Assembly: GCF_038630985.1 (NCBI RefSeq)
Contig: NZ_CP152049.1
Location: forward strand, 5,538,501-5,602,500
From: Paenibacillus sp. FSL H8-0548
Lineage (GTDB): Bacteria > Bacillota > Bacilli > Paenibacillales > Paenibacillaceae
Direction: 5' to 3'
Length of the DNA: 64,000 bases
Translations under genes and position numbers: made by a program
Shown here: in pieces, positions 5,095 through 35,692 of the stretch
Numbering within the stretch: the first letter of the stretch is position 1
Layout of the letters: each line of letters begins with the position of its first letter
The notes under the pieces: model-generated
What the model was told of the DNA's origin: nothing
The model's input: only the letters and a program-made list of their open reading frames with translations
The model's database searches: none

Positions 5095-5120
5095 GTTTCA
5101 AAAGTTCAGTTACTGTTTAT
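5095..5120 (+). promoter_or_regulatory. Candidate sigma-B promoter of ytxH
   Basis: GTTTCA (5095-5100), 14 bp, GTTTAT (5115-5120). It has the same GTTTCA box and exactly the same spacing as four other promoters in this island. Transcription would start near 5127, exactly where the two-hairpin repeat begins, leaving a leader of about 160 nt before the ytxH ATG. Confidence 0.6.
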
Positions 5121-5127
5121 ATATAAG

Positions 5128-5228
5128 CAAGGTGAAACGGCTGTCGCCGCCCTTATGGCGGTAGCGCGTTTCATTCCGGGGAAATATAGAGATCGTATGG
5201 AGAAATGATATACTTTCCTATATTTTAA
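5128..5228 (+). repeat. Two-hairpin dispersed repeat, copy 1
   Basis: About 101 bp, roughly 88% identical to 35693-35794. Hairpin 1: GAAACG...CGTTTC with an inner GC-rich stem (CGCCGCC/GGCGG). Hairpin 2: AAATATAG...CTATATTT. Both copies keep the pairing despite base changes. This copy lies between the predicted sigma-B promoter and ytxH and would be transcribed as part of the ytxH leader. Confidence 0.8.
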
Positions 5229-5288
5229 GAAGTTCAATTATACGTTGATCAATCTGATCAACAATACAATGACGAGGAGAGATGACAA

Positions 5289-5612
5289 ATGTCACGAGAA
5301 AATTCAAGTTCTAGCGTATTGGTAGGCGCAATTGTAGGAGGAGCCATCGGTGCCATTTCAGCTCTGCTATTTGCTCCAAAAGCAGGTGCAGACCTTCGAG
5401 AGGATCTCTCAAGCAAATTCAAATCCATCAGTGAGAAAACAAAGGAAATCGCCACAGCTGTGGGAGAAAATACAAAGGATTTGGCAACAAGCATCAAGGA
5501 AGAAACCGGTGACCTCATAGACCATGCTAAGCAATCGAATCAGAGTGTTATGAATTCTATATCCTCTGCTAAGGAAGACGTGAAGGAAGATCTTGCTGCC
5601 GCAAATCGATAA
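5289..5612 (+). CDS. YtxH-family general stress protein
   Basis: 107 residues. A glycine-rich hydrophobic N-terminus (VLVGAIVGGAIGAISALLFAPKAG, residues 10-33) is followed by a charged, amphipathic helical tail (residues 36-107). This is the YtxH pattern, including the conserved LFAPKAGxxLR motif. YtxH relatives in Bacillus belong to the general stress regulon. GAGGAGAG precedes the ATG at 5289. A candidate sigma-B promoter lies at 5095-5120 with a 101-bp repeat in the leader. The gene converges on sigB and shares a terminator with it. Confidence 0.88.
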   Translation: MSRENSSSSVLVGAIVGGAIGAISALLFAPKAGADLREDLSSKFKSISEKTKEIATAVGENTKDLATSIKEETGDLIDHAKQSNQSVMNSISSAKEDVKEDLAAANR

Positions 5613-5617
5613 AACCA

Positions 5618-5665
5618 TAAAAAAAAGATCCTCTCCATATTCATTCTGGAGAGGATCTTTTTTTT
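5618..5665. terminator. Bidirectional terminator between ytxH and sigB
   Basis: GATCCTCTCCA pairs perfectly with TGGAGAGGATC, flanked by an A-run on the left and a T-run on the right, so it works in both directions for the converging genes. Confidence 0.92.
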
Positions 5666-5684
5666 ATTAACTATTTTATAATAC

Positions 5685-6467
5685 TTATGTACTATAATCT
5701 GGATGATGATCAACAAGGAGCAGCTTCAGCTTCTCCATCGCCCGCTTTTGGATACGGGAAACACTCATTTGGGAGACGCCGAGCTCCTCGGCAATATCAC
5801 GCTGCGATTTGCCGTTGTGATAAGCGAGCACCAGCACCGTTTTCTCCTCCGTCTTCAATTGATCAAGCGCCTCCTCCAGATCAAGACGATGATCGACATT
5901 CTCATAGTCATCCCTATCCGAGCTGATGAGATCGCCAATAGTAGCAGCACTTTCACCTTCACTCGATAGAGGAGTGTCAAGCGATACATAATGATAGGAT
6001 TCTCTACAGGAAAGCACTTCAATCGTTTCTTCCACTGTGAGACCCAAATAAGCTGCTATTTCTTCCATCTTAGGCGAACGGCTAAGCTCAACCGTTAAAT
6101 AACCAATCGCCTGTTGAATAAGCAAACCTTTTTCTTTGATCCGTCTTGGTACCTGGATATACCAAGACTTATCACGCAAATAGTTTTTCAAATGGCCAAT
6201 GATGCTTTTCATCGCATAGCCTTCAAACGGAATTCCCCGTGATCCGTCAAACTGCTTAAACAAGCGCAGCATAGAGAACTGACCGACCTGATACAAATCC
6301 TCATAAAGGTCAGGCCGGCTCCGCGACATTTTTGTTGCTGCTATTTTAACGATAGGCTCAAAGTGCTGCAGCAATTCCGTTGCTGCATCGTTGCAGCCGG
6401 TTTCTCGATACCGTTCCATTTTTTCAATAATTTCTTGCGGACCCAGGCAGGATGAGTTTGTATTCAT
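5685..6467 (-). CDS. sigB: RNA polymerase sigma factor SigB
   Basis: 260 residues, a sigma-70 family group 3 factor. Region 2 is clear (DLYEDLYQVGQFSMLRLFKQFD and FEGYAMKSIIGHLKNYLRD, about residues 55-100), then region 3 (RIKEKGLLIQQ...LTVELSRSPKMEEIAAYLG) and region 4 with an HTH (GKSQRDIAEELGVSQMSVSRIQ, near 220-241). The ATG at 6467 overlaps the rsbW stop, and AGAGGAG lies 7 nt upstream. The factor directs the general stress response and is held inactive by RsbW. The operon DUF948-rsbW-sigB starts at a predicted sigma-B promoter (7398-7423), which implies autoregulation. Confidence 0.95.
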   Translation of the reverse strand: MNTNSSCLGPQEIIEKMERYRETGCNDAATELLQHFEPIVKIAATKMSRSRPDLYEDLYQVGQFSMLRLFKQFDGSRGIPFEGYAMKSIIGHLKNYLRDKSWYIQVPRRIKEKGLLIQQAIGYLTVELSRSPKMEEIAAYLGLTVEETIEVLSCRESYHYVSLDTPLSSEGESAATIGDLISSDRDDYENVDHRLDLEEALDQLKTEEKTVLVLAYHNGKSQRDIAEELGVSQMSVSRIQKRAMEKLKLLLVDHHPDYST

Positions 6468-6901
6468 GCCATCTCCTCTTTCCTACCAAATAGCTTGGTG
6501 AGAATCACCTCTGTACCTCTTCCCGATAATACTTCAACCTTATCCATTAAAGCATGCATCATAAAAATACCAAGTCCACCTGCCGTTATCTCGTTTAGCT
6601 CCTTATCATGAAGAGAAGAAGACTTGCTTGCCGGCTCGTATTTAAAGCTGCTGCCTTCATCCTTAATTCGAATGGAGATGCCTTCTTCTTCAATCTCATA
6701 AGTAATGTCCACTTCTCCGTTTTGCACATTGCTATACGCGTGAAGCACCACATTCGTGCATGCCTCGGTTACCGCTACCTTCATATCTTCTATTTCCTCA
6801 TAGGAGAAACCTGCTTTAGTCGCAATACCAAACAATGTAAGTCTAACCAAATCGATATATTCCGTCCGCGCAGGGATCGTCAGCCGAATGAAAGAGTTCA
6901 T
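6464..6901 (-). CDS. rsbW: Anti-sigma-B factor / serine kinase RsbW (copy 1)
   Basis: 145 residues from the ATG at 6901. A frame extending to a TTG at 6964 exists, but it would overlap the DUF948 stop and lacks the paralogue's start pattern (MNSFIRLTIPA here, MNAIRLQIPA in copy 2). GHKL fold: N-box EACTNVVLHAY (about residues 48-58), G1 box IKDEGSSF, G2 box GGLGIFMMHALMD. It binds and blocks SigB and phosphorylates RsbV. It sits directly before sigB with a 4-bp overlap. A second intact paralogue lies at 11217-11648 next to rsbV. Confidence 0.92.
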   Translation of the reverse strand: MNSFIRLTIPARTEYIDLVRLTLFGIATKAGFSYEEIEDMKVAVTEACTNVVLHAYSNVQNGEVDITYEIEEEGISIRIKDEGSSFKYEPASKSSSLHDKELNEITAGGLGIFMMHALMDKVEVLSGRGTEVILTKLFGRKEEMA

Positions 6902-6939
6902 AGTTTCTTCTGTCCTCTCTTGTTTGTTCTCATGATAGC

Positions 6940-7368
6940 TTATATTTTTTTTAGCTTGTTCCAAACTCTAATACCGGAGATAACGCCCTTATAAATCGTA
7001 CTAACGATTCTCGGCTCCTCCGAAGGCTTCTTGCTCTCTTTTTTTATGGAAGCAACTACACTTGCCGCTGATTCTCTCGCCGCTCCAGTAAACGAGTGCA
7101 AGGCATGACCAATATCGTTGACGGAAGCAAACAAACCATCCAGCGAGCTTAACTTTTCTCTTACATCAAGTGTCATCGCATTGGTGTTGTGAACAGCTTC
7201 CTTCACCTCAACGCTAATTTGTGTAACCTCAATTCTTAAAGTGCCAATGGTTTGCCGCATCTCTTCAAGCCCAGCTCGCAAAGCCTTCAACGTTTGAATA
7301 AGAGAATACATCAGAATGAGAAAAGCTACCGCTATAACAGCAATACTAATTTGCATAAGAATATCCAT
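6940..7368 (-). CDS. DUF948 (YtxG-like) membrane protein
   Basis: 142 residues from the ATG at 7368. One N-terminal membrane helix (residues 5-27) is followed by a coiled-coil region with regular heptads (ALRAGLEEMRQTIGTLRIEV), the DUF948/YtxG pattern. The sequence AAGGAAGTGATG before 7368 nearly matches the whole anti-Shine-Dalgarno. The alternative ATG at 7377 is too close to it, and the upstream TTG at 7425 falls inside the predicted promoter. First gene of the DUF948-rsbW-sigB operon. YtxG and YtxH are stress proteins encoded together in Bacillus. Here they flank the sigB operon. Confidence 0.85.
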   Translation of the reverse strand: MDILMQISIAVIAVAFLILMYSLIQTLKALRAGLEEMRQTIGTLRIEVTQISVEVKEAVHNTNAMTLDVREKLSSLDGLFASVNDIGHALHSFTGAARESAASVVASIKKESKKPSEEPRIVSTIYKGVISGIRVWNKLKKI

Positions 7369-7397
7369 TGTGTTCATCACTTCCTTTTTTTCATTAG

Positions 7398-7423
7398 TTA
7401 CCCGATAAACTCCCTTTTGAAAC
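7398..7423 (-). promoter_or_regulatory. Candidate sigma-B promoter of DUF948-rsbW-sigB
   Basis: On the minus strand: GTTTCA (7423-7418), 14 bp, GGGTAA (7403-7398). This is a near-consensus sigma-B promoter (GTTTAA-N12-15-GGGWAW). It gives a short leader before the ATG at 7368 and makes the operon self-activating. Confidence 0.78.
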
Positions 7424-7478
7424 AATAGGGGAAAAAGCTATATTCTAAATTTAGGAGAGAGCTCACTTATGGCATTCA

Positions 7479-7487
7479 TGCTATAAT
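7479..7487 (+). promoter_or_regulatory. Extended minus-10 element upstream of the hybrid kinase
   Basis: TGCTATAAT, a perfect extended minus-10 for the housekeeping sigma factor, stands about 50 bp before the TTG start at 7538. No good minus-35 is seen, which is normal for extended minus-10 promoters. The sensor would thus be expressed without stress. Confidence 0.55.
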
Positions 7488-7537
7488 AGTAAACGTCCAT
7501 TAAATTAAATTTTTTCATACTAAAGGAGCTTATTCCA

Positions 7538-10261
7538 TTGCGTAATTTACGATTACATATACGTGCCAAAATTTTAATCGGCTATTTTCTTATTATTTGT
7601 TGTTTGGGTGCTTCCATTGTTATCGTGAGTGATCGAATTTCATCCTTGCAAATTGATATCGAAACGATCACCAGCCGTGACATCGAGATCCATAATTTAA
7701 TTACAACAATTCGCTATAATGCGATCAACATGGAATCCAGTCAGCGCGGTTATGTTATTACAGGCAATGAGGATTATTTGGAGCCTTATGCCAAAGGGAA
7801 AGCGGAGTGGGAAGCCAATTACAATGCACTTTACCAGTACCTCTCTGACGATCCTACTACGCGAAAGAGCTTGGAGGAAATCAAGCTTACAATTCAAAAT
7901 TGGATACGGGTAGCCGGCGAGCCCATCGTCGAAATGCGAAAGTCGAACAATACTCAGGGCATTATCGAGTTTTTTAATAATGACAGCGGCAAGACAGACA
8001 TCGATGCCCTTCGAGTACAATTGGAAGCACTTCGTCAAAAAGAGATTACAGCAACCCAAAACTATATTTTGAAGCTGGAAAGCCGTAATGATTTGCTCAT
8101 TATTAGTCTATATCTCATGCTGCTAATCGTTTCCATTGTTGCCTTCTTTATTGTAGCTTATGTTTCCGGAATCATTGTCAAAACGATTAAGGATGTTGTA
8201 ACAACGATATCGGATATTGCCTCCTCCGGCGGTGATCTGTCCACACGCATTAAAGTCAATACACGAGATGAAATTCGTGATCTGGCAAATGCAACCAATC
8301 TATTGCTCGATAATTTAAGCGATCAAAACTGGATTCAAACGAAAGTAGCAGAAGTCGCTACTATGAATCAGGGGATTAACAATATGAACGAGCTGGCGGA
8401 TTCCTTCTTATCCAAGCTCGCACCTATACTAAATGCAGCCTATGGATTATTTTATATTAAACAAGGGACGGGAGATAAGCAGAGGCTGATCAAGATCGCC
8501 TCCTATGCCGAAGCAAATGATAATATGGGCCTTGAGAGCTTTCGGCTAGGCGAGGGTTTAATCGGTCAAGCAGCGCTCGATAATCGTACGTTCTTACTGA
8601 ACACAACACCCGATCATACCATCGCCATTACATCCGGGCTTGGCGTGCATCAGCCTAAAAGTGTCTTAATCGTCCCCATTGAATTTGAGGGAACGGTTGC
8701 TGCCGTCGTCGAATTCGCTTCCACAGAATCGTTCACCTCACAGCATCTGAAGCTCTTGGAGCAAATTGAGCATTCCTTAGGCGTAGCCATCCACAGTGTC
8801 GCCAGTCGCATGGAGGTCGAGCGGCTGCTAAGCGAATCACAAGTATTGACAGAGGAACTTCAGACACAGACGGAGGAGCTTCAGACGCAATCCGAGGAGC
8901 TGCAAATGCAGCAAGAGGAAATGCGCATGACGACCGAGCATCTGGAGGAGCAAAATCTATTTGCTCAGCAAAAAACAGAGGAATTGCAAAAAGCAAAACA
9001 GGAACTTGAGACATATTCCGAGCAGCTTCGAAAAAGCTCGCAATACAAAACAAATTTTTTGGCCAATATGTCGCATGAGCTTCGTACACCGCTTAACAGC
9101 ATTTTGATTCTCTCTCAGCTCCTGTCTGAGAACGAGAATGAAACCTTGAATCAAGAGGAAGAAGGTTATGCCCAAGTAATTAACACCTCAGGCAATGACC
9201 TCCTTATGCTCATAGATGATATTTTGGATTTATCAAAGATTGAGGCTGGAAAGATCATCCTGATGATGGATGAAGTGAATGTTAGTGAAATTCCTGAGCA
9301 TATGAAGCTGCTCTTTAATCCTGTAGCTGAGCAAAAAGACCTTGCCTTTCAGATCAGCATGGCTGTCGATCTCCCTGCCGTGCTCCATACAGACGGTCAA
9401 AGATTACAGCAAATTTTAAAAAATCTGCTATCTAACGCTTTTAAGTTTACTGAGCGTGGTACTGTCAGCCTCAGCATTCAAAATGCCGATAGAAAAATCA
9501 TTGAGAAGTATATCCCTGCTCATATGGATAAAGCAGTGATCGCCATTACGGTATCCGATACGGGCATCGGCATCCCTTTAAATAAGCAGCAGCTCATTTT
9601 CGAGGCATTCCAGCAGGTAGATGGTGAAACGAATCGTCAATTCGGAGGAACCGGGCTTGGTTTATCGATCTGCAATGAGTTTACAAGGCTGCTTGGCGGA
9701 CGCATCGTGCTGGACAGCCATCCCGGCCAAGGCAGTACCTTCACACTGCTTTTGCCTAGTCTGCCCGGGATGGACAGGGAACAGCTTGTATCACTGCATC
9801 AGGAGGTTGCTGCTGCTGCACAAGATACAATGGGAGCTGTAGTGACCGAAATATGCGAAGAGGATGAGGAATTATTTCGCGGTAAAAAAGTACTGCTAGT
9901 TGAAGATGATTCACGTAATGTGTTCGCCCTCGTTAAGGCACTGGAAAGCAAATCATTTGACGTAACTATCGCAAGCAACGGAAAACAATGCATCGAAATT
10001 ATTAAACAGCGAACCGACTTTGATTTAGTCCTCATGGATATTATGATGCCGATTATGGATGGATTTGAAACGATGAAAGCCATTCGTCTGGATCCAGCTA
10101 TGCAAGAAACGCCAATCATTGCGTTAACAGCTAAAGCAATGAAAAGCGACCGCGATAAATGTCTTGAGGCGGGTGCTTCTGACTATATTAGCAAGCCGCT
10201 TAATATGGATCAGCTCTTCTCACTTATGCGGGTATGGCTTACAAAGCAGGTGGTAAATTGA
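7538..10261 (+). CDS. rsbK: Membrane hybrid histidine kinase, RsbK-like stress sensor
   Basis: 907 residues from a TTG start with AAAGGAG 9 nt upstream. Order of parts: membrane helix (11-32), CHASE3 extracytoplasmic domain (about 33-180), second helix (186-208), HAMP (208-262), GAF (about 280-420), a coiled coil with repeated T/S-EELQ heptads (430-510), HisKA with the phospho-acceptor in NMSHELRTP, HATPase (DTGIGIP, GGTGLGLSI), and a C-terminal receiver (LVEDD, phospho-Asp in LVLMDIMMP, KPLN). This is the layout of Bacillus cereus RsbK, which with RsbM and RsbY controls SigB. The neighbours match: a CheR-type methyltransferase overlaps its stop, and a REC-PP2C phosphatase lies at 12813-13949. 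Confidence 0.85.
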   Translation: MRNLRLHIRAKILIGYFLIICCLGASIVIVSDRISSLQIDIETITSRDIEIHNLITTIRYNAINMESSQRGYVITGNEDYLEPYAKGKAEWEANYNALYQYLSDDPTTRKSLEEIKLTIQNWIRVAGEPIVEMRKSNNTQGIIEFFNNDSGKTDIDALRVQLEALRQKEITATQNYILKLESRNDLLIISLYLMLLIVSIVAFFIVAYVSGIIVKTIKDVVTTISDIASSGGDLSTRIKVNTRDEIRDLANATNLLLDNLSDQNWIQTKVAEVATMNQGINNMNELADSFLSKLAPILNAAYGLFYIKQGTGDKQRLIKIASYAEANDNMGLESFRLGEGLIGQAALDNRTFLLNTTPDHTIAITSGLGVHQPKSVLIVPIEFEGTVAAVVEFASTESFTSQHLKLLEQIEHSLGVAIHSVASRMEVERLLSESQVLTEELQTQTEELQTQSEELQMQQEEMRMTTEHLEEQNLFAQQKTEELQKAKQELETYSEQLRKSSQYKTNFLANMSHELRTPLNSILILSQLLSENENETLNQEEEGYAQVINTSGNDLLMLIDDILDLSKIEAGKIILMMDEVNVSEIPEHMKLLFNPVAEQKDLAFQISMAVDLPAVLHTDGQRLQQILKNLLSNAFKFTERGTVSLSIQNADRKIIEKYIPAHMDKAVIAITVSDTGIGIPLNKQQLIFEAFQQVDGETNRQFGGTGLGLSICNEFTRLLGGRIVLDSHPGQGSTFTLLLPSLPGMDREQLVSLHQEVAAAAQDTMGAVVTEICEEDEELFRGKKVLLVEDDSRNVFALVKALESKSFDVTIASNGKQCIEIIKQRTDFDLVLMDIMMPIMDGFETMKAIRLDPAMQETPIIALTAKAMKSDRDKCLEAGASDYISKPLNMDQLFSLMRVWLTKQVVN

Positions 10262-11124
10262 TTAATGATTGGACAGACGGAGACGTCGATGGCAATATCG
10301 TAGCGCAAGATGAACTCGAGCGTATAGAAATAGGCTTGCTGCTGGAGGGTATTTACAGCATCTCCGGCTTTGATTTTCGAAACTACTTGCGCTCCTCTTT
10401 GCAAAGACGCATAAAGTATCGGTTAAGCCTTGAAGGCCTGCGTACGATTACCGCACTGCTTGAGAAGGTGCTGCATGAACCGGGATTTATTAATAAGCTG
10501 CTAAATGATTTCTCCATTAAAGTAACCGAGATGTTTCGTGATCCGAGCTTCTTCGCCGCCTTGCGTACAGAAGTCATCCCTTCTCTTCGGGCACTTCCCG
10601 AAATTCGGATCTGGCATGCAGGCTGTGCGACCGGAGAAGAGGTTTACTCCATGGCTATATTGCTCCAGGAGGAAGGCTTGCTTGAGAAAACAAAATTATA
10701 TGCAACCGATATGAACGAATACGCCATTGAAATTGCGAAGCAAGGACGATTCCCATTAAAACGAATGCAGACGTTTACGAAAAACTATTTGAAGGCAGGC
10801 GGTACGAAGGAGTTTTCTGCTTACTATACGACAGATCATGATTACGCATTATTCCATCCTGATATTAAGAAAAATATGACGTTTGCACAGCATAATCTCG
10901 CAACGGATCGGTCCTTTAATGAATTTCATCTTATTTTATGCCGCAATGTGTTAATTTACTTTGACTCTGACCTTCAAAGCCGGGTGCATCGTTTGTTTTT
11001 CGAAAGCCTTTCTCAAAACGGTTTTTTGGCGTTGGGAAATATGGAATCGATCATCTCCAATCAAAAGACTCACTACAATGATATTAATTGTAGTGAGCGT
11101 ATTTTCCGCAAATCAATGAGTTAA
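10258..11124 (+). CDS. rsbM: CheR-type methyltransferase, RsbM-like modifier of the hybrid kinase
   Basis: 288 residues if translation begins at the TTG at 10258, which overlaps the kinase stop (TTGA) and has GGTGG just before it. An ATG at 10234 gives 296 residues but has no ribosome binding site. Both CheR parts are present: the N-terminal helical domain (SGFDFRNYLRSSLQRRIKYRL) and the SAM-binding domain (IWHAGCATGEEVYSMAILLQE, then ATDMNEYAIEIAKQG and LILCRNVLIYFD). In B. cereus, RsbM methylates RsbK and damps SigB activation. Coupling to the kinase gene supports the same role. No CheB partner is seen in the window. Confidence 0.85.
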   Translation: MINDWTDGDVDGNIVAQDELERIEIGLLLEGIYSISGFDFRNYLRSSLQRRIKYRLSLEGLRTITALLEKVLHEPGFINKLLNDFSIKVTEMFRDPSFFAALRTEVIPSLRALPEIRIWHAGCATGEEVYSMAILLQEEGLLEKTKLYATDMNEYAIEIAKQGRFPLKRMQTFTKNYLKAGGTKEFSAYYTTDHDYALFHPDIKKNMTFAQHNLATDRSFNEFHLILCRNVLIYFDSDLQSRVHRLFFESLSQNGFLALGNMESIISNQKTHYNDINCSERIFRKSMS

Positions 11125-11160
11125 GCTCTATTCCATCGATCGCTTGCTCTATATTTTCAC

Positions 11161-11204
11161 AAAAAAAGCTGCTCTGAAAGGTAGATACACCTTTCAGGCA
11201 GCTT
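11161..11204. terminator. Terminator between converging rsbM and rsbW2
   Basis: AAGCTGC-CTGAAAGG pairs with CCTTTCAG-GCAGCTT. An A-run on the left gives a proper T-tract for minus-strand transcription (rsbV-rsbW2). The plus-strand side has only a weak T-rich tail. Confidence 0.8.
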
Positions 11205-11216
11205 CTTCTGTTGTAC

Positions 11217-11648
11217 CTATGGGTTATAATTCAAATATTTCTTTAAGATGACCTCGGTGCCGCGCTCCAGCGCATTCACTTCAACCTCATCCATTAATGC
11301 CTGCATTAAATAGATGCCTAAACCGCCGACGCGAAGCCCGCTCACGTCAACAGCAGGCAGCAGCTCAGCTGCTTCCAACGTTTTCGCAGCCAAAGCCGTT
11401 GTCCCATTATCCTTCACTTTAATCGTAAGCACGTCTTTATCAGACTCAAAGGATATATCGATTACCTCTTCATTCTCATCTTGCTTACTATGGATGACAG
11501 CATTATTACATGCCTCGGAGACCGCTACCTTCATATCTTCAATCTCTTCGTAGGAATAGTTCATTTTCGATGCAATTCCATAGAGACAGATTCTGACTGT
11601 ATCAATAAAGTCTGCATGGGCCGGTATTTGTAAACGAATGGCATTCAT
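11217..11648 (-). CDS. rsbW: Second RsbW-type anti-sigma factor / serine kinase
   Basis: 143 residues, a clear paralogue of the RsbW at 6464-6901. Both share the helix SYEEIEDMKVAV, the N-box (EACNNAVIHS), the G1 box (VKDNGTTA) and the G2 box (GGLGIYLMQALMDEVEV). All ATP-binding boxes are intact, so it should be an active kinase. The start overlaps the rsbV stop by 4 bp, giving translational coupling. It may serve SigB through RsbV, or another sigma factor. The sequence does not decide. Confidence 0.9.
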   Translation of the reverse strand: MNAIRLQIPAHADFIDTVRICLYGIASKMNYSYEEIEDMKVAVSEACNNAVIHSKQDENEEVIDISFESDKDVLTIKVKDNGTTALAAKTLEAAELLPAVDVSGLRVGGLGIYLMQALMDEVEVNALERGTEVILKKYLNYNP

Positions 11649-11977
11649 GCCTCAGCCTCGGTCCCTTCTGTTAAATATCTGGAAATACCGGTCAAGTCAA
11701 ATAGCCGTTTAATAGGCGAAGGAACCTCCTTCACGAAAAAGGGTGCCTTCAGCTCATCACGCAGCTTTAGCACAGAGACGATAATCCCGATTCCGGTGCT
11801 ATCGATATATTTTAATTGCTTAAGATTAAGTACTAACGCTTTATCTGCTTTGTTCATGACCGGCTCCAAGGCAGCCCGCAGCTGCGGCACTACAGATAAA
11901 TCAAGCTCCCCGATAACATGAAGAATATATTGCTCTCTCGTTTCTTCTTGCATAACTTGAAATTGTTCAACTTTCAT
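11645..11977 (-). CDS. rsbV: Anti-anti-sigma factor RsbV (STAS domain)
   Basis: 110 residues from the ATG at 11977, chosen because GGAG lies 8 nt upstream. The GTG at 11986 is less well placed. STAS domain with the phosphorylatable serine Ser60 in LKYIDSTGIGI. RsbW phosphorylates it. When the PP2C phosphatase removes the phosphate, RsbV captures RsbW and frees SigB. It forms a two-gene operon with the second rsbW. Upstream, TTGTAC and TACGAT separated by 18 bp could be a housekeeping promoter. No GTTTCA-type box is seen, so this operon seems constitutive. Confidence 0.92.
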   Translation of the reverse strand: MKVEQFQVMQEETREQYILHVIGELDLSVVPQLRAALEPVMNKADKALVLNLKQLKYIDSTGIGIIVSVLKLRDELKAPFFVKEVPSPIKRLFDLTGISRYLTEGTEAEA

Positions 11978-12069
11978 TACGTTCACTCCGCTCGCATTTG
12001 TTTAGTCAATCGTACCAAAAACTATTGTCCTAGTACAAGGCGTGTACGATAAATAATCAAAATTGTATT

Positions 12070-12684
12070 TTACATGGACATCATATGGAAATAATGGATA
12101 GACGTCAGCTGTTGTGTATCGGTATCGATAAACAGCTTCAACAAGGCTTCATAACGCTCGAAAACGATGCCATCCTCCGTCATATAATCAGGCTCTCCTA
12201 AAGCCTCCTGTACTCCAGCTATGGTAGCTTCGACTTCAATGCCGTCAATCCACAGCGTTTTTGCACCCTCGGCTAATTCGACGAAATTAACCATTTCATC
12301 ACTGAAAACGATGTTCATATTCGGATATTCATAAATGACCACCCCCGCCAAATGCGGGTCCTGTGTTATACGGTCAGGCTCGCCCAGCTTCTTAATTACA
12401 GCCGCAGGATCATCATAAAGTGTAATGTCGTTGACGCTTTGCAGTGTAAAGCTTGGTTTCGCGGCCTTGACCTCAGTTGATACGTTTTGCGCATAGACAG
12501 CTTCCGCCGCGCTTGAAGGAGGCATAGAAGGCTGCGCTGTTTCATTCGTTGCATCGTCAACCGCTTCAGCTATCGACAAGCTTGAATGGTCAGTCCAGGA
12601 ATACGTAGTGGCGACTGGTTCAAGATCGTTAGATAAAGCGAGTATGCCTCCAATTAAACAACCGATTAGAATAAAGCTCTTCAT
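12070..12684 (-). CDS. Secreted or membrane-tethered DUF4309-like protein
   Basis: 204 residues. A hydrophobic start (FILIGCLIGGILAL, residues 4-17) looks like a signal peptide or anchor, followed by a low-complexity A/S/P/E-rich linker to about residue 75. Then come two similar beta-rich modules built around 'LGEPDRIT' and 'LGEPDYMT', as in DUF4309/YjgB-type proteins. GGAGGGAG precedes the ATG. A GTTTCA-N14-GTGTAT element at 12738-12763 suggests sigma-B control, so it is probably a stress-induced envelope protein of unknown activity. Confidence 0.65.
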   Translation of the reverse strand: MKSFILIGCLIGGILALSNDLEPVATTYSWTDHSSLSIAEAVDDATNETAQPSMPPSSAAEAVYAQNVSTEVKAAKPSFTLQSVNDITLYDDPAAVIKKLGEPDRITQDPHLAGVVIYEYPNMNIVFSDEMVNFVELAEGAKTLWIDGIEVEATIAGVQEALGEPDYMTEDGIVFERYEALLKLFIDTDTQQLTSIHYFHMMSM

Positions 12685-12737
12685 ATGATCTCCCTCCTAT
12701 GCGGGATTGTCATGATTCTGATTTGTTATATTAAGTT

Positions 12738-12763
12738 ATACACCGTTTCCTTTGCTTTGAAAC
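12738..12763 (-). promoter_or_regulatory. Candidate sigma-B promoter of the DUF4309-like gene
   Basis: Minus strand: GTTTCA (12763-12758), 14 bp, GTGTAT (12743-12738). Same box and spacing as the promoters of sigB, ytxH, the DUF1328 gene and the hydrolase. The minus-10 differs from GGGTAT at one position. Confidence 0.6.
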
Positions 12764-12812
12764 AGCTTCACGATATTTATTTATTAAATATATTCCTCAG
12801 GAAATCATGATC

Positions 12813-13949
12813 TTAGTTTGCAGCAATTACCACTAAGCAGATATCATCCTTTTGTTGCTCGCTGTTTTGCAGTGATATAAAATCATGAACAAAATTAGCA
12901 TGTTGAGTACGATCTAATTCATTTAACTGATTCACCAGCAGTTCAAGCTTAGCTTCCTCATTCTCTCCCAAGGCTTCGCTTAAACCATCCGTATACAAAA
13001 TGATTCTCATATTGTCCGAGTAGGTGAGGCTCCCCTTAGCAATGTCGATGCTTTCAAATAAGCCAATCGCACAGCAACCCTCTGTTAGCAGCATTAGCTC
13101 GTCGCCGACCAGCAGCCTGCCTGCAGGATGTCCGGCATTCACATAATCGATCGTCCGCTTATTGGTATCCAATACTAAATAAATAGCAGTAAAATAATAA
13201 TTCAGCAGTTCTTCCTTCTTATACAGCTGATTCATATAACGATTGAGTTCATGCATAACAAGGTCTGGCTCAGTAATACGTGTAATCGTATCCTTAAGCA
13301 CCGAGGAAATATACATACAAACCAATGAAGAAGCAATACCGTGCCCCATCATATCGAGTAAAATAACCCCGTACCGACCTTCGTCGATTCGATACCACGC
13401 GTAAAAATCACCTGCCAGCTCCGTAGATGGCTGATAAATTGCGTTTATATTAACAAACTCATCATTAATCGGCTGGCTTAATACATTTCTTTGCACTTTT
13501 TTGGCAAGCTCCAGCTTAAAATTCACCTGCTTGTCTCTTTCCTTATGCCAATCAATTTCATGTTTCAGCCGCAGTGCTGATCGAATGCGCGCCAGCAGCT
13601 CCATCTTGTTGATCGGCTTCATGACATAATCAGATGCTCCCGCGTCAAGAGCTTCAGCCATCTTATTGGAATCTCCAAGCGCGGTTACAAATATGATCGG
13701 CACATCCTTATAGCGCTCTTTCCTTAAAACTTTCTTGCATGCTTCTAGGCCATCAATTTCAGGCATCATCATATCCATTAAAATTAAATCCACATTGGGC
13801 TCGGCCGTCGTATCCGATTCAATGTCCAGCAGCTTATAGAGCTCCATTGCCGAGGAAGCTGTTTTCAATTCCTTATAACCTGCTTTATTTAAAATAGCCT
13901 TTATAATAATCTGATTCGTAGCATTGTCATCCACGATTATAATACGCAT
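12813..13949 (-). CDS. rsbY: Response regulator with PP2C phosphatase output, RsbY-like
   Basis: 378 residues from an ATG with AAGGGAG 8 nt upstream. Receiver domain 1-125 (acidic pair Asp7-Asp8, phospho-acceptor Asp59 in LILMDMMMP, Lys in KPINK). A helical linker follows, then a SpoIIE/RsbU-type PP2C domain (about 165-378) with the metal motifs GDFYAWY, LLDMMGHGIAS, YTDGLSEA and QKDDICLV. It should dephosphorylate RsbV-P when its receiver is phosphorylated by the hybrid kinase at 7538, completing an RsbK-RsbY-RsbM type input to SigB. A housekeeping-type promoter lies at 13987-14015. Confidence 0.92.
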   Translation of the reverse strand: MRIIIVDDNATNQIIIKAILNKAGYKELKTASSAMELYKLLDIESDTTAEPNVDLILMDMMMPEIDGLEACKKVLRKERYKDVPIIFVTALGDSNKMAEALDAGASDYVMKPINKMELLARIRSALRLKHEIDWHKERDKQVNFKLELAKKVQRNVLSQPINDEFVNINAIYQPSTELAGDFYAWYRIDEGRYGVILLDMMGHGIASSLVCMYISSVLKDTITRITEPDLVMHELNRYMNQLYKKEELLNYYFTAIYLVLDTNKRTIDYVNAGHPAGRLLVGDELMLLTEGCCAIGLFESIDIAKGSLTYSDNMRIILYTDGLSEALGENEEAKLELLVNQLNELDRTQHANFVHDFISLQNSEQQKDDICLVVIAAN

Positions 13950-13986
13950 TTGCAGGCTCCCTTTTATTCCAGTATCTACATCTCAT

Positions 13987-14015
13987 ATTGTGAGCATAAC
14001 GAATCGCTTCGTCAA
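13987..14015 (-). promoter_or_regulatory. Candidate housekeeping promoter of rsbY
   Basis: Minus strand: TTGACG (14015-14010), 17 bp, CACAAT (13992-13987). Good minus-35 and spacing, weaker minus-10. It lacks the GTTTCA box. Confidence 0.45.
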
Positions 14016-14040
14016 CTTAATAGGCTAAATTAAATGAAGA

Positions 14041-14062
14041 GACCTATCCTCTGCGGATAGGC
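14041..14062 (-). terminator. Weak terminator after the GSP17M-like gene
   Basis: GGCCTATCC and GGATAGGTC form a short stem around GCAGA, followed on the minus strand by a T-rich but interrupted tail. Confidence 0.5.
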
Positions 14063-14098
14063 CTTGGTTTCTTCTGTTAGCGTAATCGTTATATTTGT

Positions 14099-14497
14099 TT
14101 AAACAACGTACTGAGGATAGTAGTAGACGGCTGGATCAAATTCCTCACCGGAATACTCCTTGCCACCCCAAGCGATAACGAGAATTTTATCTTGGTCCAT
14201 CTCGCGCTCTAGACGCTGAGCGTCTTGCTCGGAGACGCCAAGTGATCTCAGCTTAGCTCGGAGCTCGTCCCCGTGTGACCTAAAAATATTTGCGATCGTG
14301 CTGCCAATGCCTTCCTCTGCAACACCGATTTTCTCAGCGTCGGTATGGTCAACAATCCGCTTCGTCCGGTCCTTGTCATGCGTTAGCACATAAATTCGTT
14401 CCTTCGCATAACCTTCTCTTTGAAATTTAAATACCTGCTCCTGAACCTCGACTGCATTATCCACCGTGTGCACCTGCGTATTGTTTAAATGATTCAT
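14099..14497 (-). CDS. General stress protein 17M-like (YflT family)
   Basis: 132 residues. The N-terminal half (VHTVDNAVEVQEQVFKFQREGY, then IYVLTHDKDRTKRIVDH, about residues 8-55) matches the general stress protein 17M domain of YflT-like proteins, with a helical EQDAQRLEREMDQDKILV tail. Function is unknown in the family, but it is a standard sigma-B regulon member in Bacillus. GGAGG precedes the ATG. It follows the DUF1328 gene by 60 bp on the same strand and is probably read from the same sigma-B promoter at 14771-14796. Confidence 0.85.
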   Translation of the reverse strand: MNHLNNTQVHTVDNAVEVQEQVFKFQREGYAKERIYVLTHDKDRTKRIVDHTDAEKIGVAEEGIGSTIANIFRSHGDELRAKLRSLGVSEQDAQRLEREMDQDKILVIAWGGKEYSGEEFDPAVYYYPQYVV

Positions 14498-14557
14498 TTT
14501 AATTCCTCCATTTCATATTTTGTATTTATGTCCCTCTTCATAAAGTCGAATGTGATG

Positions 14558-14722
14558 CTAACTGGCTCTTCTTCGACCCATGATAAGAGATATAATAAAA
14601 AGTACGATAAAGATAACGAACAACACTTTCGCTATCCCTGCTAATGCAGAAGCAATTCCTAAGAAGCCGAATATGCCTGCGACGATTGCAAAAATAAAAA
14701 ACAATAATGCCCAGCCTAGCAT
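14558..14722 (-). CDS. DUF1328-type small membrane protein
   Basis: 54 residues, beginning [19 protein letters not shown], with two hydrophobic helices and a basic end (IMGRRRAS). This is the DUF1328/YtjA pattern of tiny stress-associated membrane proteins. The ATG at 14722 has AAAGGGTGAT just upstream, close to the full anti-Shine-Dalgarno. It lies downstream of a candidate sigma-B promoter and upstream of the GSP17M-like gene. A plus-strand frame over the same DNA (14580-14774) is a shadow. Confidence 0.85.
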
Positions 14723-14770
14723 TGGAATCACCCTTTCTTCGAAAATTAATTTTGCTAACTTGTCATGTAA

Positions 14771-14796
14771 ATAACCAGCCCTTCTCTCTTTGAAAC
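14771..14796 (-). promoter_or_regulatory. Candidate sigma-B promoter of the DUF1328-GSP17M unit
   Basis: Minus strand: GTTTCA (14796-14791), 14 bp, GGTTAT (14776-14771). It stands back to back with the hydrolase promoter at 14867-14892. Confidence 0.7.
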
Positions 14797-14866
14797 AGCC
14801 GATTATACGATCTCTCAGCTGAATATGGTGCTATTAATGAAGGAATAAAAAAGCTGATTTTTGAAT

Positions 14867-14892
14867 GTTTCAGAATCCGGCAATGAGGTTAA
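14867..14892 (+). promoter_or_regulatory. Candidate sigma-B promoter of the alpha/beta hydrolase
   Basis: GTTTCA (14867-14872), 14 bp, GGTTAA (14887-14892), about 47 bp before the hydrolase ATG. Confidence 0.7.
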
Positions 14893-34954: not shown

Positions 34955-35692
34955 ATGGCAGTAAGTATATATTCTCTTTTAAATGAAGGAGTAAACAAGC
35001 CGGACACAGGGGTCGCCGCATTTTTCTCCGAGGAAAACTTTAAGAAGCTCAAAAGCATTATGTATACCAAAAAAGTCGACGCTCATGGCTATTTATTTCA
35101 AGAGGGCGAATCCGCTGAATATATGTATTATGTAAGAAAAGGCAGGGTCAAGCTTACCAAAACGACGGATACGGGCAACAAAATAACCCTTTATCTTCAT
35201 CACGCGGCTGATATGTTTGGACATATTACACCCTTTCAGCCTTCTGTTCAGGCCTTTAACGCAGAAGTTATCGAGGATGCAGAATTCGGAGTGATCGAGC
35301 AAGGGGAACTGGAAACTCTGCTGCTTGCAAACGGAGATCTTGCCATTGAATTTATGCGCTGGATGGGAGCCATGTATCGTATGACCCAAGCTAAGTTTCG
35401 GGATTTGCTGCTCTATGGCAAGCCTGGCGCGCTTTGCTCGCTGCTTATCCGCATGAGTAATTCCTATGGCATCAAGCATGGCAGCAATGTAACGATCAAC
35501 TATAAAGCAACGAATATGGACCTTGCAGAAATGATTGGCGCTACTCGGGAAAGCGTCAACCGTATGCTGAACGATATGCGAAAAGCAGATGTAATCGAAA
35601 TTACTAACGGCACCATCGTCATCAAAAATATGGATTATCTTCGCAACACCTGCAGATGCGAGCAATGTCCGATCGAAATATGCCGAGTGTAA
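34955..35692 (+). CDS. fnr: Fnr-type oxygen-responsive regulator (Crp/Fnr family)
   Basis: 245 residues. cAMP-binding-like beta-roll (about 30-150), dimer helix, and a C-terminal helix-turn-helix (NMDLAEMIGATRESVNRMLNDM, about 188-209). The last residues hold Cys-x2-Cys-x4-Cys (CEQCPIEIC), preceded by one more cysteine pair element (TCRC). This is the C-terminal iron-sulfur ligand pattern of Bacillus Fnr, unlike the N-terminal cluster of E. coli FNR. It should activate anaerobic genes when the cluster is intact. It is divergent from the FNT-ldh operon, a likely target. Confidence 0.92.
   Translation: MAVSIYSLLNEGVNKPDTGVAAFFSEENFKKLKSIMYTKKVDAHGYLFQEGESAEYMYYVRKGRVKLTKTTDTGNKITLYLHHAADMFGHITPFQPSVQAFNAEVIEDAEFGVIEQGELETLLLANGDLAIEFMRWMGAMYRMTQAKFRDLLLYGKPGALCSLLIRMSNSYGIKHGSNVTINYKATNMDLAEMIGATRESVNRMLNDMRKADVIEITNGTIVIKNMDYLRNTCRCEQCPIEICRV

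Follow-up and report, generated by a model that had tools for sequence, protein, structure and literature searches.

A probable SigB-type promoter word with a nearly fixed C in its -35 box across Paenibacillales, associated with a changed residue in a DNA-reading helix of the sigma factor

We describe a promoter word, GTTTCA-N14-GKKTAW, in which a G(G/T)(G/T)TA(A/T) -10 box stands 14 bp past a GTTTCA -35 box, and which occurs five times around the sigB gene cluster in a 64,000-nucleotide stretch of the Paenibacillus sp. FSL H8-0548 genome (positions 5538501-5602500 of its single 7.35-Mb contig; this whole stretch is called the window below, and positions are counted from its first letter). These five sites are very probably promoters of the Paenibacillus SigB-type sigma factor that is encoded in the same cluster, at 6467-5685. 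Judged by sequence comparison, the word appears to be a version of the known Bacillus promoter in which a C is fixed as a strong preference, found across Paenibacillales and associated with a changed residue in the DNA-reading part of the sigma factor. It is an ordinary kind of element, a SigB-type promoter, in a lineage-specific form.

All five sites lie upstream of genes around the ytxG-rsbW-sigB, rsbK-rsbM, rsbV-rsbW2 and rsbY cluster, where the initial annotation of the window had placed them, and each was assigned from the word match together with orthologous regions. On the forward strand, GTTTCA-N14-GTTTAT (5095-5120) precedes ytxH and GTTTCA-N14-GGTTAA (14867-14892) precedes an alpha/beta hydrolase gene. 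On the reverse strand, the candidate promoters are those of the sigB operon (7398-7423, GTTTCA-N14-GGGTAA), suggesting autoregulation, of a gene for a 204-amino-acid (204-aa) protein at 12684-12070 (12738-12763, GTTTCA-N14-GTGTAT), and of a DUF1328 gene with a YflT-domain gene downstream on the same strand (14771-14796, GTTTCA-N14-GGTTAT). The assignment of the 7398 site to the sigB operon stands, with the amendment that it heads ytxG (DUF948)-rsbW-sigB. From the end of the -10 box to the start codon there are 168 nt for ytxH, 20 for ytxG, 53 for the 204-aa gene, 48 for DUF1328 and 47 for the hydrolase. The five matches compare with 0.02 expected in the window, and at least five were reached in none of the shuffles; the looser word GTTTCA-N14-GNNTAW gives seven matches against 0.21 expected, the two additional ones, at 35678 and 62090, being outside the sigB cluster. 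GTTT and the 14-bp spacer are present in all five sites and the -10 box starts with GG in three and GT in two, in keeping with the GTTT -35 box, GG-type -10 box and 12-17 spacer of SigB promoters. The claim that the signalling genes rsbK, rsbV and rsbY lack the site was borne out, as their best matches within 300 nt upstream, with spacers of 13-15, have 4, 3 and 4 mismatches in 12 positions. The sites at 14771-14892 form a divergent pair of SigB-type promoters about 70 bp apart, serving the DUF1328/YflT genes and the hydrolase.

Related loci were the best 80 of 279 stretches that encode relatives of the sigma factor, all of them from Paenibacillus except two from Bacillus sp. Their upstream regions were searched for GTTTNN, a spacer of 11-18 and a box G(G/T)(G/T/A)(T/A)A(A/T), and later recounted by region, omitting orthologues under per-gene identity floors, with a query start past residue 40 or with fewer than 60 nt upstream. 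In these loci and the window, the N14 sites of the five target genes number 168, and their -35 box is GTTTCA in 162, GTTTCG in 4 and GTTTGA in 2; GTTTAA, by which a SigB promoter might have been recognised, occurs in none. An N14 site was found in 56 of the 60 ytxG regions (54 with GTTTCA), 44 of the 67 ytxH regions (40 with GTTTCA), 42 of the 45 DUF1328 regions and 16 of the 20 regions of the 204-aa gene, every one of the latter two groups having GTTTCA. Sites of the YflT gene (GSP17M; 29 of 55 regions) were kept out of the 168, because the DUF1328 promoter often falls inside that 300-nt stretch. Upstream of sigB (0/81), rsbW (0/80) and rsbK (0/54) no N14 site was found on the gene's strand in the related loci and the window, and such sites are seldom seen before rsbM (2/73), rsbW2 (1/53), rsbY (2/59) and rsbV (3/76). 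An N15 match is present in 18 of the 76 rsbV regions, all 18 with GTTTCA, the three N14 sites being among them with a shift of one. These 18 belong to loci in which rsbV stands directly before rsbW-sigB, and therefore probably serve as the sigB-operon promoter in that arrangement. In this group of loci (L067, L073, L082, L087, L089 and, in part, L095-L110) the GTTTCA site, mostly N15, replaces the N14 promoter that heads ytxG elsewhere.

The conservation of the sites goes beyond mere common descent: of 182 distinct sites, 94% have a T immediately ahead of GTTTCA, a base left free in the search, and the spacer columns (8-19) each carry at most 0.15 bit. In all, 206 strict sites and no reversed control were counted in the 70 full-length loci, with a mean of 2.94 strict sites per 20.7-kb sigB locus. 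Changes at position 5 of the -35 box amount to 3 sites with A, 7 with G and 1 with T, compared with the 206 that have C, and no site has a change at position 3 or 4. The CA and the spacing had been described as constant, and as tighter than the Bacillus consensus; both statements are true of the window, and the second is true more widely, whereas constancy fails elsewhere: in the 70 loci there are 27 N15 and 6 N13 variants of the GTTTCA word, 12 GTTTCG-N14 and 22 GATTCA-N14 sites, and certain YwzA-like genes described below have GTTTAA-N13 or -N14. In the -10 box, T stands at -14 in 71 of the 206 strict sites, and -12 in the GTTTCA-N14 sites is T in 206 cases, C in 2 and A in none. T at -13 predominates at the targets (ytxH 44/57, DUF1328 31/42, 204-aa gene 13/17, hydrolase 20/20), and the sigB-operon promoter retains GGG in 53 of 55.

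The word is also enriched across whole genomes. In the source genome GTTTCA-Nx-GKKTAW occurs 6, 8, 20, 9 and 7 times with spacers of 12, 13, 14, 15 and 16, so that the 14-bp spacing belongs to the whole genome and not to the cluster alone. The 20 N14 matches compare with 8 for reversed-pattern controls. We then compared 198 Paenibacillales genomes, 160 with the sigma factor at an E-value of 1e-65 and 38 without it (20 listed and 18 obtained by subtraction, a few of them being incomplete, at 78-85%). In the 160 genomes there are 2188 matches against 1078 reversed controls, a mean excess of about seven strict sites per genome, and in the 38 there are 183 against 165; for 19 factor-less genomes of two families (f1 and f45) the counts are 112 and 98. 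The per-genome excess differs between genomes with and without the factor with a Mann-Whitney p of 1e-11, a value that overstates the independent evidence, as the genomes are related. This comparison suggests that the sites depend on the SigB-type factor. GTTTAA-N14, for its part, shows no excess, with 1058 matches against 1741 controls in the sigma-bearing genomes and 157 against 396 in the others. GTTTAA-N13 was considered as a second genome-wide class of sites and rejected, having no excess either (899 against 1790 controls, and 156 against 434).

The sigma factor has SigB as its best equivalog, at 195.7 bits compared with 130 for SigF and 108-113 for SigG, and it is the one SigB-type factor seen in the source genome. 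Its closest relatives in named genomes are from Paenibacillus, and in a tree the Paenibacillales factors form one clade (support 100/99) beside the sequences of family f11; the forks to canonical SigB are weakly supported in the same tree and the outgroup branches are long. The closest solved relative by sequence is S. aureus sigma-B (chain 8x6g_H, E 3.3e-43), in which S235, Q236, M237 and R241 read positions -34, -32, -33 and -35, respectively, and R110, R100 and R97 read -15, -14 and -13 (Yuan et al. 2024, PMC11156646). We mapped these residues in 131 Paenibacillales sequences (the 80 loci and 51 from further genomes, in which species may repeat), 44 canonical SigBs and 6 sequences of families f11 and f12; at class level 70 of 151 genomes had matched, 64 of them over the cut-off, of which 44 were used together with all six below it. 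As in S. aureus, the readers of -35 to -32, -15 and -14 (S235, Q236, M237, R241, R110 and R100) are unchanged in all mapped sequences, including 131 of 131 Paenibacillales. Two positions in the DNA-reading helices differ from the SigB of Bacillus and Staphylococcus. At residue 238, which adjoins the readers of -33 and -32, all 131 Paenibacillales sequences have Ser, all 44 canonical SigBs His and all 6 f11/f12 sequences Gln. At residue 97, which reads -13G, all 131 Paenibacillales have Asn, canonical SigBs Arg, and f11/f12 sequences His or Arg. In the protein encoded in the window these are residues 235 and 95.

The nearly invariant C at -31 (position 5 of the -35 box) seems to accompany Ser238, and the acceptance of T at -13 to accompany Asn97, and the two residues may have caused the altered base preferences. 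It is plausible, if short of probable, that the SigB of the whole order Paenibacillales has been re-tuned, the change from His238 to Ser making C at -31 nearly obligatory and that from Arg97 to Asn relaxing -13, so that the promoters became largely private and are poorly cross-read with Bacillus SigB. If true, a stress sigma factor and its promoters would have changed their specificity in concert, in a natural case mapped onto a structure. With two candidate residues named on a solved structure, the way in which sigma factor and promoters change together can be tested cleanly.

In B. subtilis the SigB promoter is GTTTAA-N15+/-2-GGGTAT, and the consensus for Bacillales is KTTTW-N12-17-GGGWAW (Yeak et al. 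2023, PMC9847131). The Paenibacillus sites share with these promoters GTTT at -35, a short spacer and a G-rich -10 box with TA, and further resemble the Bacillales system in the apparent autoregulation of the sigB operon, deduced here from its site, and in having stress-protein targets. They differ in having C instead of A at position 5, a spacer of mostly 14, a -10 box that accepts T at -14 and -13, and T at -12, where canonical rsbV promoters often have A. Among the canonical loci, 21 of 44 have a GTTT-anchored rsbV site, the other 23, without one in the scanned stretch, being left out; position 5 is A in 15 of the 21, -13 is G in 20 (a count that leans to G, as GGG was preferred among several matches) and -12 is A in 12. 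Since the Bacillus consensus asks for A or T where Paenibacillus has C, most such promoters would escape a strict search based on it, and TGTTTCA-N14-GKKTAW is usable as a search model for the stress regulon of a large genus.

The presence of sigB, rsbV, rsbW and the rsbKY-rsbM module in Paenibacillus was already reported, in a survey that included two Paenibacillus genomes (PMC9847131); GTTTCA is absent from the main text of that article. Transcription starts were mapped in P. riograndensis SBR5, with the consensus ttgaca/TAtaaT (PMC5670726). No paper came up in a full-text search that combined GTTTCA, SigB, consensus and regulon, and among the titles and abstract openings listed for Paenibacillus and sigma factors none described a Paenibacillus SigB consensus; most subscription journals and all supplements lie outside this coverage. 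The GTTTCA variant thus appears to be undescribed in the searchable literature.

Three other explanations of the sites have to be weighed against their use by the SigB-type factor. The SigB/SigF/SigG family partly shares GTTT-like -35 boxes, and two other factors of the genome (L111 and L112), which we take to be SigF and SigG without a scan against those models, score over the SigBFG cut-off, so that the sites might be read by one of these forespore factors and merely resemble SigB promoters. We regard this as very unlikely, as the excess of the word is confined to genomes with a SigB-type factor, the sigB operon is itself preceded by a strongly conserved site (56/60), and the target types (YtxG/H, YflT, Dps and YwzA-like) match the Bacillus SigB regulon, in which dps, trxA, yflT and ytxG/H are counted. 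Still less credence, next to none, is due to the idea that the sites were kept by chance or by the common descent of a small gene cluster, and not by the function of the word: most of the sites examined do occupy orthologous positions in one conserved cluster, but the spacer columns vary freely where the 12 box positions do not, and across genomes the surplus over reversed controls follows the presence of the sigma gene. A third explanation, which we consider improbable, puts the C at position 5 down to an accident in the sampling of strong promoters and credits the factor with ordinary SigB specificity, GTTTAA being accepted equally. In its favour are GTTTAA sites before seven YwzA-like genes (L297-L299 and L301-L304), conserved as GTTTAA-N13/N14-GGTTAATAGTA and placed 42-48 nt upstream, and a ratio of GTTTAA-N14 to its control that is 0.61 in sigma-bearing genomes and 0.40 in the others, that is, a weaker depletion where the factor is present. 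Against equal acceptance stand the 3 GTTTAA-N14 compared with 206 GTTTCA-N14 sites near sigB, the lack of a GTTTAA-N14 excess in sigma-bearing genomes and the A at position 5 in most of the canonical rsbV promoters that have a GTTT site. Judging from the two ratios, a few sites probably tolerate A, and the YwzA-like genes show that GTTTCA is a strong preference and not an absolute rule, unless another factor reads these sites.

These last two observations weigh against the preferred reading, that of a SigB-type factor with an altered base preference, and others do so as well. The factor falls short of the curated cut-off for SigB (TIGR02941, 195.7 against 315 bits) and also of that for SigBFG. 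Among the targets, the hydrolase has an N14 site in just 10 of 27 regions, every one GTTTCA, and trxA in 2 of 30 loci, and near sigB there are the 22 GATTCA-N14 sites. Two genomes of family f43 (L240 and L241) have Ser238 and no GTTTCA-N14 excess, with 1 match against 2 controls and 2 against 4; theirs are the most distant of the Paenibacillales SigB types. As to the residues, the positions of R74, F79 and F86 differ too in Paenibacillales, T is accepted at -14 despite the unchanged reader R100 and hence outside the residue account, which is incomplete for the -10 box, and C occurs at position 5 in 2 of the 21 canonical rsbV promoters. The Results and Discussion of the S. aureus structure paper name no contact to -31 (PMC11156646). 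Finally, because the Paenibacillales sigma factors form one clade, the link between Ser238 and C at -31 is in effect one evolutionary event and so a correlation.

The initial annotation proposed that the word defines a local regulon and serves as a search model for the genome. The second proposal proved useful, given the 20 matches against 8 controls; 12 of the 20 stand in front of genes, or 13 counting a doubtful one before an AI-2E transporter gene (L020). The first holds for the clustering at sigB and not for the extent of the regulon, as shown by the excess of about seven sites per sigma-bearing genome, compared with the 2.94 per sigB locus counted in a different set of genomes, and by sites at dps, trxA, YwzA-like and glgC-type genes. 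Fifteen of the matches lie outside the window, and seven of these are inside long open reading frames (L002, L011, L017, L021, L022, L026 and L028) and were treated as chance. Apart from the doubtful one, the others stand before the genes of a Dps-type ferritin, a MORN-repeat protein, a GlgC-type nucleotidyl transferase, a 78-aa family-less protein, an SLH-type surface protein (named by sequence), thioredoxin (trxA) and a YwzA-like transglycosylase-associated protein; in B. subtilis, ywzA is an established member of the SigB regulon (PMC9847131). In the returned loci (30 for dps, 26 for YwzA-like and 30 for trxA, those for dps and trxA being a subset of the matches listed), GTTTC(A/G)-N14 was found before 6 of the 30 dps, 5 of the 26 YwzA-like and 2 of the 30 trxA genes, the source genome included each time, and some of the dps genes have the GTTTCG form. 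A conserved distant regulon was rejected on these counts, the three kinds of site being poorly conserved, so membership of the distant regulon turns over fast. Four of the five YwzA-like genes with the site (L308 and L310-L312) are paralogues of 49-54% identity located 2-3 kb from sigB. Such a paralogue is found 2-3 kb from sigB in five genomes (L308-L312), with GTTTCA-N14 in four and N15 in one (L309), and GTTTCA-N13 precedes the YwzA-like genes L293 and L294.

The genes of the locus were named by Pfam and NCBIfam profiles over the region 4.2-15.8 kb. The sigB-type gene (5685-6467, reverse strand; NCBIfam, tree and contact residues) is overlapped at its start by rsbW (6464-6904, reverse), whose product exceeds the PRK04069 RsbW cut-off (169.3 against 145 bits) and falls below that of TIGR01924 (148.9 against 155.05); all 80 related loci have an RsbW match directly upstream of the sigma gene and on its strand. 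Upstream of rsbW is a ytxG-like gene (DUF948, PF06103; 6940-7377, reverse, with its ATG at 7377). On the forward strand follow an rsbK-like hybrid histidine kinase gene with CHASE3-HAMP-GAF-HisKA-HATPase-REC domains (7538-10261) and, overlapping its end, an rsbM-like gene for a CheR methyltransferase (10234-11124), both assigned by Pfam. Then come, on the reverse strand, a second rsbW-like gene, rsbW2 (11217-11648), which scores under the RsbW cut-off (140.8 against 145 bits), paired with an rsbV-like STAS anti-anti-sigma factor gene (11645-11986; Pfam/NCBIfam for both), the 204-aa gene (12070-12684), and an rsbY-like REC-SpoIIE(PP2C) phosphatase gene (12813-13949; Pfam). RsbW-type anti-sigma factors are thus encoded twice in the locus, by the rsbW of the sigB operon, which lacks rsbV, and by rsbW2 beside rsbV. 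The 204-aa protein, whose start is signal-peptide-like by eye, had been called DUF4309-like, a name that finds no support here, since neither Pfam nor NCBIfam gave a match at E 0.001. The remaining putative targets, named by Pfam, are the ytxH-like stress gene (PF12732; 5289-5612, forward), the YflT-domain general stress protein gene (PF11181, GSP17M; 14099-14497, reverse), the DUF1328 membrane peptide gene (PF07043; 14558-14722, reverse) and the alpha/beta hydrolase gene (PF00561; 14940-15809, forward). For the hydrolase as RsbQ, no structure of that name was among the best 60 of 91 structure matches. Nearer relatives share this gene order, and in others it is rearranged.

By Pfam the RsbKY module is complete, with the hybrid kinase, CheR-type RsbM, REC-PP2C RsbY, RsbV and RsbW. 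It is like the RsbK-RsbM-RsbY system of the B. cereus group in its hybrid kinase with a receiver, adjoining CheR methyltransferase, receiver-PP2C phosphatase, RsbV and RsbW, and unlike that group in that sigB-rsbW stand with ytxG and without rsbV, which is paired with the second rsbW, and in that signalling and target genes are intermixed. In B. cereus, phosphate passes from RsbK to RsbY, leading to dephosphorylation of RsbV (PMC7522486), and the domains found here fit this path. From the protein families and the literature one may sketch a pathway in which stress would reach RsbK, with RsbM modulating, phosphate would pass from RsbK to RsbY, RsbY would dephosphorylate RsbV, and RsbV would remove RsbW from the sigma factor. 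The freed factor would then initiate at TGTTTCA-N14-G(G/T)(G/T)TA(A/T), with its own operon among the targets as a positive feedback, and with the adjoining stress genes and a small set elsewhere as the other targets. Since the signalling genes lack the site, the input arm is apparently outside this feedback.

Three smaller features of the window concern these genes. A candidate sigma-A promoter for rsbK (TTGAAA-N16-TATATT), on the opposite strand across the -35 box of the sigB-operon promoter, was considered and dropped as coincidence, as 31 of the 54 rsbK regions carry the sigB-operon site in reverse and only 7 of these have a -10-like TANNNT box at 16-18 nt. Downstream of the ytxH promoter and ahead of the start codon, the leader segment 5131-5175 can fold into a hairpin of -24.4 kcal/mol (z -1.8; 9 of 200 shuffles fold equally well), which is single copy in the window and has a further GTTTCA within its 3' arm. 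In RsbK, a repeated EELQxQ (8860-8930) ahead of the kinase domain is perhaps the signalling helix, which in B. cereus is methylated by RsbM (PMC4574943).

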